DNA from: an uncultured Gammaproteobacteria bacterium
GTDB lineage: Bacteria; Pseudomonadota; Gammaproteobacteria; GCA-002705445; GCA-002716945
Direction: 5' to 3'
Assembly (NCBI GenBank): GCA_902521725.1
Contig: CABYTF010000005.1
Span: forward strand, 1-64,000
DNA length: 64,000 nucleotides
A program made the translations under genes and the position numbers. Every line of letters starts with the position of its first letter. Within the stretch, counting starts at the first letter, position 1. This document shows positions 13,937 through 17,771 of the stretch, piece by piece. Under the pieces are notes generated by a model. The model searched no databases. It was not told the origin of the DNA and saw only the letters and a list, made by a program, of their open reading frames with translations.

Positions 13937-14824
13937 ATGAAGAGCGCTAAAAAAAACGAGGTTGGATTTATTGGTTTAGGCATTATGGGAAAACCAATGG
14001 TCATAAACTTAATAAAAAATGACATTAAGGTTTATTTCTATGCGAGGAAGAGACAAATAATAGATGAAATATCGAAGATTGGAGGTAAGTTTATTCCAAA
14101 TCCTAGTGATATTTCAAAATTCACAAAAATCATCTTGACGAACCTCCCAAATACAAAAGATGTCGAAAATATTGTCATTGGTAAAAATGGAATTATCAAT
14201 AGTCTACAAACCGGCTCTATTGTAATAGACATGAGCACGATATCACCTGAAGGCACAAGATATATAAATGGCAAATTGCGAGAAAGAAAATCCTATCTTG
14301 TGGATGCTCCGGTATCAGGTGGTGAGGCTGGCGCGAAATCTGGGAAATTATCAATTATGGTTGGTGGAGATAAATCAGCTTATCTCAAAATCAGATTTAT
14401 TCTGTCAATTCTAGGCAGCAAAATAACATATTTAGGTAAAAGTGGATCAGGTCAAGTTTGCAAAGCTTGCAATCAAATCTTGGTGGCACAAACTATACAA
14501 TCTATTAGCGAAATTATCACTATTGCAAAGAAGTCAGATATAAATCCGATGATAATTAGAGAAGCTCTTCTCGCGGGATATGCCAATAGTAAAATTTTAG
14601 AGGTTCATGGGAAAAGAATGATTACCTCAGACTATAAACCTGGGTTTAAGCTATCTCTTCATCATAAAGATCTCAAAATAGCTAAGAATTTAATCAAAAA
14701 CATGGGCTTAAATCTGAAAGGATTGAATCAAGTTCAGAAAGCAATGAGGTCCGCGGAAAGTGAAGGTCTGTCAGAATTCGACTCCTCTGTCATCCATACT
14801 ATATTAGAAAAAACTTATAAATAA
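13937..14824 (+). CDS. NAD(P)-dependent beta-hydroxyacid dehydrogenase (GarR/HIBADH family)
   Basis: Cytosolic oxidoreductase of the 3-hydroxyisobutyrate/tartronate semialdehyde reductase family. The Rossmann motif GFIGLGIMGKPM opens the protein (residues 10-21), followed by the substrate-binding block APVSGGEAGAKSGKLSIMVGG, the catalytic lysine in GSGQVCKACNQ, and the C-terminal KDLKIA. The 295 residues are normal. It could act on tartronate semialdehyde, succinic semialdehyde or 3-hydroxyisobutyrate; the sequence alone does not decide. The start lies 26 bp from the divergent holA start, so its promoter must overlap holA. Confidence 0.87.
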   Translation: MKSAKKNEVGFIGLGIMGKPMVINLIKNDIKVYFYARKRQIIDEISKIGGKFIPNPSDISKFTKIILTNLPNTKDVENIVIGKNGIINSLQTGSIVIDMSTISPEGTRYINGKLRERKSYLVDAPVSGGEAGAKSGKLSIMVGGDKSAYLKIRFILSILGSKITYLGKSGSGQVCKACNQILVAQTIQSISEIITIAKKSDINPMIIREALLAGYANSKILEVHGKRMITSDYKPGFKLSLHHKDLKIAKNLIKNMGLNLKGLNQVQKAMRSAESEGLSEFDSSVIHTILEKTYK

Positions 14825-14862: not shown

Positions 14863-15261
14863 ATGGACGACAAATACGAGAGTATATATAGAAATCTAAA
14901 TGTAACCCCTACAAAACAGAGGGTTGATTTAGCGCAGCTGATATTTTCAAAGAAACAGCATTTTACTGCTAATGACCTTATAGCAATGGCTGATAAAAAG
15001 AAATTGCATATTTCTATGGCAACAATATATAATACTCTTTCTTTATTGGAGGATAAAGGAATGTTAAAGACAATAAATATAGATAATGAATTAAAGTTCT
15101 ATGATACTAATCTAGATAATCACCATCACCTTTACAATACAACCATGAGCACCTTGACTGATATTGACCATGATAAGATTGTTTTTGCAGAACTCCCAGA
15201 GTTACCAAATACTCTCCAAATCGAGAGCACAGAAGTATTAATCAAGGCAAAAAATAAATAA
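14863..15261 (+). CDS. Fur-superfamily regulator, Irr-like
   Basis: A 132-residue DNA-binding regulator of the Fur family. The winged-helix half shows TPTKQRVDLAQLIF (residues 15-28) and the recognition region ISMATIYNTLSLLEDKG (50-66). The dimer half has three consecutive histidines at 87-89 in DNHHHLYN, the pattern seen in Irr proteins, and no cysteine at all, so the structural CxxC zinc sites of many Fur/PerR proteins are missing. It converges on the DUF3501 gene with a 5-nt gap. Because a box matching the Irr operator lies upstream of the neighbouring rubrerythrin gene, it is the likely regulator of that operon and may sense iron, haem or peroxide. Irr versus PerR assignment is inference. 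Confidence 0.78.
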   Translation: MDDKYESIYRNLNVTPTKQRVDLAQLIFSKKQHFTANDLIAMADKKKLHISMATIYNTLSLLEDKGMLKTINIDNELKFYDTNLDNHHHLYNTTMSTLTDIDHDKIVFAELPELPNTLQIESTEVLIKAKNK

Positions 15262-15266
15262 TAATC

Positions 15267-15848
15267 TTAATTTGTTTTAAGATCACCTTGTAAGCTTTTT
15301 TTAGCGATCTCGTCTAATACAATTTCCTTGTTATATTCTGGGTGATCTACGCCTATTCTCACATCAGAACTTGAAATGAAATCAGCTATGTCATCTTGCT
15401 CAAGCTGAAAACGTAAGAAGTGAACTGCAGATGTTTTCTCATCCGTGCTCCTGTCTAAATCCTCATCTGCATAAGCTATAATTTTTTTATCGCCGGAAGA
15501 TAACCAAACTTTATTTTCTATATCATGGAGCTTGAACAACATCTCTCTTCTCACTTCAACATCAGGAAACATTATCAACATTGTTGCTTTGAGATTTGTT
15601 CCATCAGGAATGAGGGGATTGTATGCATCAATTTCTTCTTGAATTTCCTTCTTATTGAAAATTTTTTCTATCCTCAGCATTTCCTGTACTTGATATTTGA
15701 TAGTCATATAATCTTCAAATATAAGAACAATGTTATCGCCAATATTGATTGTCCTGTTTTTTTTATGACTAATTAGTTCTTTTTTTATTGAGTCTCTCTT
15801 AGAATCATATTCTTCAAGTGAGAGAAGGTCTTTAGGCTCTAATTTCAT
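15267..15848 (-). CDS. DUF3501 family protein
   Basis: A 193-residue soluble protein recognised as DUF3501 from its opening (KDLLSLEEYDSKRDSIKKELISHKKNR), the YQVQEMLRIEKIF block and the LIPDGTNLKATMLIMFPD block. Biochemical function is unknown. Its ATG overlaps the stop of the FeS-protein gene by 4 nt (ATGA), the same pairing seen elsewhere where DUF3501 follows a rubrerythrin and a CCG-domain FeS protein, so the three probably act together in oxidative-stress or redox metabolism. No membrane segment or signal peptide is visible. Confidence 0.82.
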   Translation of the reverse strand: MKLEPKDLLSLEEYDSKRDSIKKELISHKKNRTINIGDNIVLIFEDYMTIKYQVQEMLRIEKIFNKKEIQEEIDAYNPLIPDGTNLKATMLIMFPDVEVRREMLFKLHDIENKVWLSSGDKKIIAYADEDLDRSTDEKTSAVHFLRFQLEQDDIADFISSSDVRIGVDHPEYNKEIVLDEIAKKSLQGDLKTN

Positions 15849-17173
15849 GCTCTTATTCCATACGCTTTCTTAATTAAACTAATCGGATGCTCAGGCTCTT
15901 GTATGTTCCCTAGTGAATTTTCAATATGATGAGCGGCCAATGAGCAGTCACTTGTAAAACTATCAAAATTGGCATCTTTAAATGACTTGGTTATAGGTCT
16001 AGCAATTTTGATAGCAATATCATGTGTTTCTAGCTTTACTCCGTATGTTCCATCATGACCAGAACACCTTTCGATTGCATTGACGGTAGTACCAGGAACT
16101 AGTTCGAGAATTTTTTTTGTTAACATGCCAAAGTTTTGTACTCTCTGATGGCATGCAACTTGATACGATATGTTGCCAAGCTCTGTATTAAAATCTGTTT
16201 TCAATATACCCTCATTATTCAACATATTTAAAAATTCAAAGGGGTCTCTAAATGATTTGGAGACTTTCAATAAATCTTGATTATCAGGGAAAAGAAGTGG
16301 CAGCTCTTGTTTATACATCAAAACGCACGATGGAATTGGCGCAATAATCAGATATCCTAGATCAGTGAATTTTTTGAATTTAGGCAAGTTCTTTTCCATC
16401 ATCTTGCCGACTTCCTCGATGTTTCCTAATTCTAACTTTGGCATCCCGCAACAGTTGTCGTCGGTTATCATTTCCACAGTTACATCATTGTGTTTTAGAA
16501 TATCATAGAAGTCTTTGATTACTCCGGGCTCGTTAAAGTTATGATAGCAAGTAGTAAAAATTGCTACCTTGAATTTTGAAGTATTAGATTGATTGGTTAG
16601 GTTGAGCTGTTTCGCAGTTTTTGATACAAATTTAGGCAACTTTGCGTTTCTATGGACCCCAAACTTCTCCAAAAGTTTTCTGAAAACTTTGTTATTGTTA
16701 AAGAAATTTACAAATGTAGAGACAAAATACCTAGAGAACATTTTGCCTAGCATATCTGTAGAGGCAAGAACTTTGTCACGAAAAGATATTTTTTTCTTTG
16801 AATTTTTAATTGCCTTACCTCTTAGCATAAGGTGAGGAAAATCAATCTCCCATTCATGTGGTGGAACATATGGACACTTTGTCATAAAACATAAGTCACA
16901 CAAATAGCAATGATCTACAACTGAATCAAAGTCATTATATGAGACTCCGTCAACTTCAAAAGTTTCAGATTCATCAATGAGATCAAATAAAGTAGGGAAT
17001 GAATTACATAGACTCACACATCTCCTGCAACCATGACAAGCGTCTGCGACTCGTCGTAGCTCTTCCTCGTATTTTTCTTCATTCAAAAAATCGGGGTTTT
17101 TCCAATCTATAATATGTCTGGTTGGTTTTTCAAGCCCACCTTCCAAGCTAGGTTTTAAATTCGCGTTGTCCAT
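15845..17173 (-). CDS. Iron-sulfur oxidoreductase with CCG domains (GlpC/HdrD-like)
   Basis: A 442-residue FeS protein. Near residues 43-55 it has CHGCRRCVSLC and near 92-104 CYLCDLCFMTKCP, two 4Fe-4S binding sets, followed by two cysteine-rich CCG-type domains: DDNCCGMPKLELGN, and the later ACHQRVQNFG and ERCSGHDG in place of a full CCG. This is the architecture of the anaerobic glycerol-3-phosphate dehydrogenase C subunit and heterodisulfide reductase D, but no FAD-containing partner is adjacent. Here it lies between rubrerythrin and DUF3501 and is likely an electron donor or carrier for that system. It may be expressed at a lower level than rubrerythrin because a hairpin lies between them. 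Confidence 0.85.
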   Translation of the reverse strand: MDNANLKPSLEGGLEKPTRHIIDWKNPDFLNEEKYEEELRRVADACHGCRRCVSLCNSFPTLFDLIDESETFEVDGVSYNDFDSVVDHCYLCDLCFMTKCPYVPPHEWEIDFPHLMLRGKAIKNSKKKISFRDKVLASTDMLGKMFSRYFVSTFVNFFNNNKVFRKLLEKFGVHRNAKLPKFVSKTAKQLNLTNQSNTSKFKVAIFTTCYHNFNEPGVIKDFYDILKHNDVTVEMITDDNCCGMPKLELGNIEEVGKMMEKNLPKFKKFTDLGYLIIAPIPSCVLMYKQELPLLFPDNQDLLKVSKSFRDPFEFLNMLNNEGILKTDFNTELGNISYQVACHQRVQNFGMLTKKILELVPGTTVNAIERCSGHDGTYGVKLETHDIAIKIARPITKSFKDANFDSFTSDCSLAAHHIENSLGNIQEPEHPISLIKKAYGIRA

Positions 17174-17234: not shown

Positions 17235-17654
17235 TTATGAGATTGATTCTAGCGCTTTAGTAAAGCGGTTAGCATGTGATCTCTCAGCTTTTGCAAGAGT
17301 CTCGAACCAATCAGCGATCTCATCATGACCTTCATCTCTTGCTGTTTTTGCCATTCCAGGGTACATATCTGTGTACTCGTGTGTTTCCCCAGCAATAGCT
17401 GCTTTTAAGTTTGAAACACTATCTCCGATAGGCTCTCCTGTAGCAGGATCTCCACATTCTTTTTCAAGATACTCTAAATGACCATGAGCATGACCTGTTT
17501 CACCTTCAGCGGTTGAGCGAAAAACAGTAGCTATATCATTTTGACCCTCAACATCAGCCTTAGCTGCAAAGTAAAGGTATCTTCTATTTGCTTGGGATTC
17601 CCCAGCAAATGCGTCTTTTAAGTTTTGTTCTGTTTTTGAACCTTTTAAACTCAT
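17235..17654 (-). CDS. Rubrerythrin (diiron domain only)
   Basis: Non-haem diiron protein that reduces hydrogen peroxide. The 139 residues form a four-helix ferritin-like domain with the metal ligands in order: E in AGESQANRRY, ExxH in EGETGHAH, E in GETHEY and ExxH in KAERSHANR. The C-terminal rubredoxin FeS4 domain of classical rubrerythrin is absent, so electrons must come from another protein, plausibly the FeS oxidoreductase next door. The ATG at 17654 was preferred over one 4 codons upstream because GGAG lies 7-8 nt before it. Expression is driven by a near-consensus promoter covered by an Irr-type palindrome. Confidence 0.92.
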   Translation of the reverse strand: MSLKGSKTEQNLKDAFAGESQANRRYLYFAAKADVEGQNDIATVFRSTAEGETGHAHGHLEYLEKECGDPATGEPIGDSVSNLKAAIAGETHEYTDMYPGMAKTARDEGHDEIADWFETLAKAERSHANRFTKALESIS

Positions 17655-17673: not shown

Positions 17674-17692
17674 ATTTAGAATGATTCTAAAT
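17674..17692. promoter_or_regulatory. Irr-type operator palindrome upstream of rubrerythrin
   Basis: Perfect inverted repeat of 9 bp on each side of a central G: ATTTAGAATGATTCTAAAT. It contains TTTAGAA-N3-TTCTAAA, the published consensus of the Irr box of alphaproteobacteria. It covers the -10 hexamer and the predicted transcription start of the rubrerythrin promoter, so a bound protein would block RNA polymerase. The obvious candidate is the Irr-like regulator encoded about 2.4 kb away. That pairing is inferred, the palindrome is directly seen. Confidence 0.8.
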
Positions 17693-17712
17693 TTATCCAT
17701 TACATATGTCAA
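17684..17712 (-). promoter_or_regulatory. Sigma-70 promoter of the rubrerythrin operon
   Basis: A consensus -35 TTGACA (17712-17707) and a -10 TAGAAT (17689-17684, one mismatch) are separated by exactly 17 bp. The predicted start is near 17677, leaving about 22 nt of leader containing the GGAG ribosome site. The -10 lies entirely within the Irr-type palindrome. Confidence 0.75.
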
Positions 17713-17771
17713 ATATTTTCTGCTATGATATTTAAGATGATAATGATTCTTGTTATCTTTGAGACGAGATT

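Follow-up and report, generated by a model that had tools for sequence, protein, structure and literature searches.

Rubrerythrin operon and its promoter

The window, which is the whole stretch of 64,000 nucleotides that was analysed, contains a minus-strand operon of three genes assigned by gene and domain calls and by comparison with PMC5114695: rubrerythrin (rbr, 17235-17654, start codon ATG at 17652-17654), a rubrerythrin-associated GlpC-like Fe-S oxidoreductase (RFO, 15845-17173) and, as the last gene of the operon, a DUF3501 protein (15267-15848). The rubrerythrin is of the aerobic type and carries no rubredoxin domain, and the three genes stand in the identical order of the aerobic-type rubrerythrin cluster rbr-RFO-DUF3501 of Cardenas et al. 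2016 (PMC5114695). When this publication was searched by terms, PerR, Irr and promoters were not mentioned; the operator and the link to a regulator are added by the present analysis. The divergent neighbour of the operon is pyrD.

On the plus strand, a Fur-family regulator gene of the Irr lineage (14863-15261; 132 amino acids, no cysteine; assigned by domains, tree, residues and structure model) converges on the operon. Its ORF, which starts with ATG, lies tail to tail with the DUF3501 gene, the two ORF ends being five bases apart. An NAD-binding 2-hydroxy-3-oxopropionate reductase-like gene (13937-14824, plus strand, assigned by domains) lies 38 nt upstream of the regulator, an order kept in relatives; judging from the shared strand and the short gap, the two genes are possibly co-transcribed. 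Among 79 beta- and gammaproteobacterial loci (L114-L182), a ThiO-like oxidase gene precedes the Irr-like gene in 39.

The rbr promoter reads on the minus strand as TTGACA (-35, 17707-17712, invariant in the family alignment), a 17-bp spacer and TAGAAT (-10, 17684-17689, with the spacing kept in relatives), and is thus consensus-like. It is overlapped by the palindrome ATTTAGAATGATTCTAAAT (17674-17692, no strand assigned), which consists of two perfect 9-bp arms and one central base, 19 bp altogether, and contains the class-wide core TTAGA-N5-TCTAA. The entire -10 box is inside the palindrome, and the ATG follows 19 nt beyond. Both a perfect 19-bp palindrome over the TAGAAT of a TTGACA-17 bp promoter and an Irr-like gene with an HHH motif converging on the operon had been proposed in the original prediction, and coordinates and sequence confirm the two (HHH at residues 87-89). 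The core TTAGA-N5-TCTAA may resemble the Irr box/ICE consensus of alphaproteobacteria.

The length of the palindrome alone is unremarkable, as the window has two perfect 9+1+9 palindromes where about 0.5 are expected, the second being intragenic; what stands out is the rarity of the sequence and its conservation. By chance, the 15-base core TTAGAATNATTCTAA should turn up about 0.04 times in a genome of 0.97 Mb; it was observed twice, at the rbr and ftsH promoters. A reversed-pattern control matched 0 times in the same genome and 0-1 times in relatives. A Fur-box-like element, TGATAATGATTCTTG (17738-17752, no strand assigned, 11/14 consensus match), also lies between pyrD and the rbr -35 and is a lead only. 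Most relatives have an 11-12/14 match at a distance of 33-39 nt from the -35; the element in the window stands about 33 nt upstream, is on its own only weakly significant, and could provide a second, iron-dependent input to rbr.

Lineage and metal-site residues of the regulator

The position of the regulator was determined using a maximum-likelihood tree of 56 proteins. The window's family joins the Irr-like proteins of beta- and gammaproteobacteria (support 92/83), and the resulting group adjoins alphaproteobacterial Irr (joint support 98/95) as sister to that clade and not within it. Leptospira PerRA branches further out, and Fur, Zur and Gram-positive PerR are found on the separate side of a 100/98 branch. 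Judged from its sequence, the regulator belongs to the Irr lineage, and a Zur or Fur identity was ruled out by the tree and by the residues (no Arg at the specificity position). The best NCBIfam models were IrrA with 113.9 bits (cut-off 150) and Irr with 110.8 (cut-off 170), followed by Leptospira PerRA with 79.5; the protein therefore fails the curated Irr and IrrA cut-offs.

Residues H33, D81, H87, H89 and D100 correspond to the PerR regulatory metal site, and N57 to the DNA-specificity residue; all six are kept in every beta- and gammaproteobacterial and family row of the alignment, bar one unreadable residue. The HxH motif (H87, H89) is likewise conserved, and there is no CxxC and no structural Cys4 zinc site. 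Since alphaproteobacterial Irr has nearly all of the metal-site residues, these cannot settle whether the signal is peroxide or haem. The AlphaFold2 model (pLDDT 92.4) has the Fur-family fold and adds little beyond the sequence. By sequence and fold, the nearest solved structure is Leptospira PerR (5nl9), a peroxide regulator without a structural metal site (PMC8638851).

Conservation of the operator and its co-occurrence with the regulator

Within the window's family, the Irr-like gene was detected in 23 of 25 genomes (53-96% identity in relatives), and the gene order of regulator and operon was nearly unchanged wherever the region was read. The core was intact in 20/20 family relatives with the rbr promoter read, and TTGACA was fixed relative to it (17 bp), with widely varying distances from operator to ATG. 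This conservation, and a regulator that groups with Irr and not with Fur, Zur or Gram-positive PerR, agree with what the original prediction had expected of an operator and its regulator. One to three cores per genome were counted in 24 of the 25 genomes. The sole family genome without a core (G016) is also without the Irr-like gene and RFO, and one assembly (G001) is missing both of these genes and keeps the ftsH site. A genome of another family (G030) has the same arrangement, with TTAGAATAATTCTAA. In G015 (L057:4657-4964), the rbr operon has shrunk to a remnant comprising the start of rbr and the end of the DUF3501 gene, and the operator is still intact.

These observations bear on the reading of the palindrome as a product of chance or a structural element that no regulator reads, for which the surplus of perfect palindromes in the window would speak. 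Against it stand the near-absolute conservation amid drifting flanks, the recurrence of this arrangement at rbr, katG, redoxin and most ftsH promoters, where the best -35 match again lies 17 bp from TAGAAT, and the near-zero reversed-pattern controls. We consider this reading extremely improbable, and a chance palindrome was rejected on the conservation in relatives.

The association was then examined across the class (gamma- and betaproteobacteria), where RFO was present in 126/276 genomes. Eighty RFO genomes in which the DNA upstream of rbr was read and the genome was searched for an Irr-like protein were used, two weak Irr-like matches near E = 1e-13 being scored as absent. TTAGA-N5-TCTAA preceded rbr in 56/61 Irr-positive and 5/19 Irr-negative genomes (Fisher p = 6e-8), and in 38/43 and 2/13, respectively, when one genome per family was taken (p = 1.8e-6). 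Of the five Irr-positive genomes in which the motif is absent, G045 carries TTAGACAAAGCCTAA and G077 the spacing variant TTTAGACACAAGTCTAAA; for three of the five Irr-negative genomes with a site, a relative from the same family has both gene and site, so that the gene was probably overlooked in a draft assembly. The background of the motif was one match in 790 kb of other class sequence, and that match (L172) itself lies before an rbr operon. Roughly half of the class sites have a TANNNT ending 10-11 nt ahead of the operator, and therefore the transcription start, not the -10, would be covered at these sites; as far as position tells, both placements would suit a repressor.

The module is thus class-wide and not peculiar to the window's genome. 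The original prediction had presented the arrangement as special to this gammaproteobacterium, which does not hold: Irr-like genes and the operator are widespread in beta- and gammaproteobacteria. Nor are Irr-like proteins beyond alphaproteobacteria new, since Irr-type and PerR-type genes were previously annotated in Acidithiobacillus (PMC2631029).

Genomes that lack both the Irr-like gene and the site often have an OxyR-like gene beside rbr. This was the case in 8/14 such genomes (L222, L230, L238, L241, L244, L251, L280 and L294) vs 0/66 others, with p = 2.6e-6 for site vs no site and 4.9e-5 with one genome per family. The encoded proteins are 33-41% identical to E. coli OxyR, and their identity as true OxyR rests on this similarity. 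At the threshold used, no OxyR match was obtained in the 25 family genomes, and the same query matched 13/13 class genomes tested outside the family. The simplest reading of this exchange is that both proteins serve one signal, peroxide. As OxyR is present in most other class genomes too, a peroxide role of the Irr-like protein would be partly redundant in them.

The operator might alternatively be real and be read by canonical Fur, besides which no Fur-domain protein other than the Irr-like one was found in the genome, and to which the Fur-box-like element upstream of the rbr -35 could point. Two Fur-box-like sites 29 bp apart, located between a TonB-dependent receptor gene and an exbD-like gene outside the window (L340, G000:C1:32026-32069), suggest that an ordinary Fur regulon exists in this genome, and the operator is unlike these boxes. 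Furthermore, the site tracks the Irr-like gene across the class, and Fur carries Arg instead of Asn at the specificity position. A reading by Fur is therefore very unlikely, and the operator is with high probability that of the Irr-like protein, whose binding we infer from sequence comparison.

Predicted regulon, probable signal and known systems

All other exact family sites that were examined lie close upstream of a gene, and one example of each family target gene was checked by Pfam. Sites were located before ftsH in 11 genomes of four genera, before a redoxin-type peroxiredoxin gene in six genomes of one genus, before iscR in G005 and before katG in G010, where the rbr operon has been lost and katG, preceded by the same operator, occupies its position between pyrD and irr (L101, G010:C4:40500-46500). 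At rbr, katG, redoxin and several ftsH promoters, TAGAAT lies within the operator with the best -35 match (4-6/6 bases) 17 bp away; no good -35 stands at that position in the promoter of iscR or, within the window's genus, in those of ftsH. In the window's own genome, a perfect core is situated between rlmE and ftsH, outside the window (L097 site 2659, G000:C2:66658). A near-match with one mismatch (G000:C2:35291) sits between converging genes and was dropped as chance.

Outside the family, a stricter pattern applied to 58 genomes gave seven sites not at rbr: three before cytochrome c peroxidase genes (G208, G131 and G141), one before katG (G296), one before gpmI and two before genes of unclear role. 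The identities of the G208 peroxidase and the G296 katG come from Pfam, those of the G131 and G141 peroxidases from sequence only. From these operator sites, the regulator is predicted to control peroxide-defence genes, and its putative regulon consists mostly of peroxide scavengers. The exact core was absent beside the irr-like genes in the 79 beta- and gammaproteobacterial loci scanned outside the window's family; since look-alikes upstream of irr have 1-2 mismatches (L114, L123, L155 and L156), autoregulation is not claimed.

Our best explanation, to which we assign a probability of about 0.6, is that the palindrome is the operator of the neighbouring Irr-lineage repressor and forms with it a PerR-like peroxide switch on the rbr operon. 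A repressor dimer on the operator would hide the rbr -10 and shut off the peroxide-reduction operon rbr-RFO-DUF3501. With Fe2+ (or Mn2+) in the H33/D81/H87/H89/D100 site, the repressor would, most likely in a PerR-like manner, hold the operator; hydrogen peroxide would then oxidise the iron site, by which the repressor would be released and the operon turned on. In this lineage without OxyR, peroxide regulation would rest mainly on the repressor, which would have some additional, lineage-variable targets (ftsH, peroxiredoxin, katG and iscR). Genome comparison shows that the site is conserved and overlaps the promoter, that regulator and site occur together, which genes are targets, and that there is an exchange with OxyR; binding, repression and the chemistry of the signal are inferred.

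The assignment of the operator to the regulator is supported, and the predicted regulon makes peroxide a likelier signal than iron or haem. Once the assignment is accepted, peroxide is probably the main signal, and haem or iron is the less likely choice. A metal-based peroxide sensor without cysteines, comparable to Leptospira PerRA, is favoured. Three points speak against the peroxide reading: the closest characterised relatives by phylogeny are the alphaproteobacterial Irr proteins, which have nearly identical metal-site residues and for which a response to haem has been described (PMC7762939); neither iscR nor ftsH encodes a peroxide scavenger; and most other class genomes have OxyR, with the partial redundancy named above.

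The regulator could instead behave as a true Irr, binding the operator when haem or iron is scarce and being released or degraded when haem meets the HxH motif, so that the iron-rich peroxidases are made only when both iron and haem are plentiful. This is consistent with the sister position to alphaproteobacterial Irr, with Irr as the best NCBIfam match and a conserved HxH, and with the many targets that are haem or iron enzymes, iscR among them fitting an iron logic. A bacterioferritin-like gene converging on the Irr-like gene in one class member (L068:5305-6242) would also fit an iron role there. A close parallel is R. sphaeroides Irr, which binds the promoters of the rubrerythrin-like gene mbfA and of ccpA (PMC3413700). 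On the other side, peroxiredoxin and FtsH are neither iron stores nor haem enzymes, an OxyR-like gene is exchanged in at the same operon, a canonical Fur with Fur boxes at the TonB receptor and exbD genes is already in the genome for iron, and the score is below the NCBIfam Irr cut-offs. We regard true Irr behaviour as the main rival reading, less likely than peroxide sensing. The iron or haem switch of the original prediction is accordingly not supported as it was stated, given targets that are mostly peroxide scavengers, a family without an OxyR match and OxyR-like genes by rbr in many Irr-less genomes.

A wider proposal, which we advance tentatively and hold at somewhat less than even odds, is that the Irr lineage comprises old cysteine-less peroxide sensors controlling the aerobic rubrerythrin operon across beta- and gammaproteobacteria and interchanging with OxyR. 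Haem or iron sensing would have arisen only in alphaproteobacteria, and small marine gammaproteobacteria without OxyR would depend chiefly on this repressor for peroxide regulation. In the open-licence literature, no previous description was found of the operator, of its association with rubrerythrin across the class or of its regulator's exchange with OxyR. For a large beta- and gammaproteobacterial Fur-family group scoring below the Irr cut-offs, the analysis offers a prediction of what the proteins do, which DNA sequence they read and which genes they target, and it points to a way in which small marine bacteria lacking OxyR could sense peroxide. It also makes the question of how Irr came to sense haem testable, as its sister group seems to oversee peroxide enzymes.

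Compared with known systems, OxyR is an unrelated LysR-family activator, and an OxyR-like gene stands beside the same rubrerythrin operon in many genomes that lack the Irr-like gene and the site. Gram-positive PerR has the same H-D-H-H-D metal site (H37/D85/H91/H93/D104 in B. subtilis numbering), Asn at the specificity position and a small peroxide regulon, but it differs in its CxxC pairs and in lying across the 100/98 branch. Alphaproteobacterial Irr shares with the window's regulator the lack of cysteine pairs, HxH and Asn in the recognition helix, and in R. sphaeroides acts at rubrerythrin-like and cytochrome c peroxidase promoters (PMC3413700); the window's regulator nevertheless falls outside that clade and has a predicted regulon centred on peroxide scavengers. 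Leptospira PerRA (5nl9) is about 23% identical over the fold alignment and branches outside the Irr and beta/gammaproteobacterial clade, yet it has the same metal-site residues and no CxxC, and it controls catalase, peroxiredoxin and cytochrome c peroxidase (PMC10294975).
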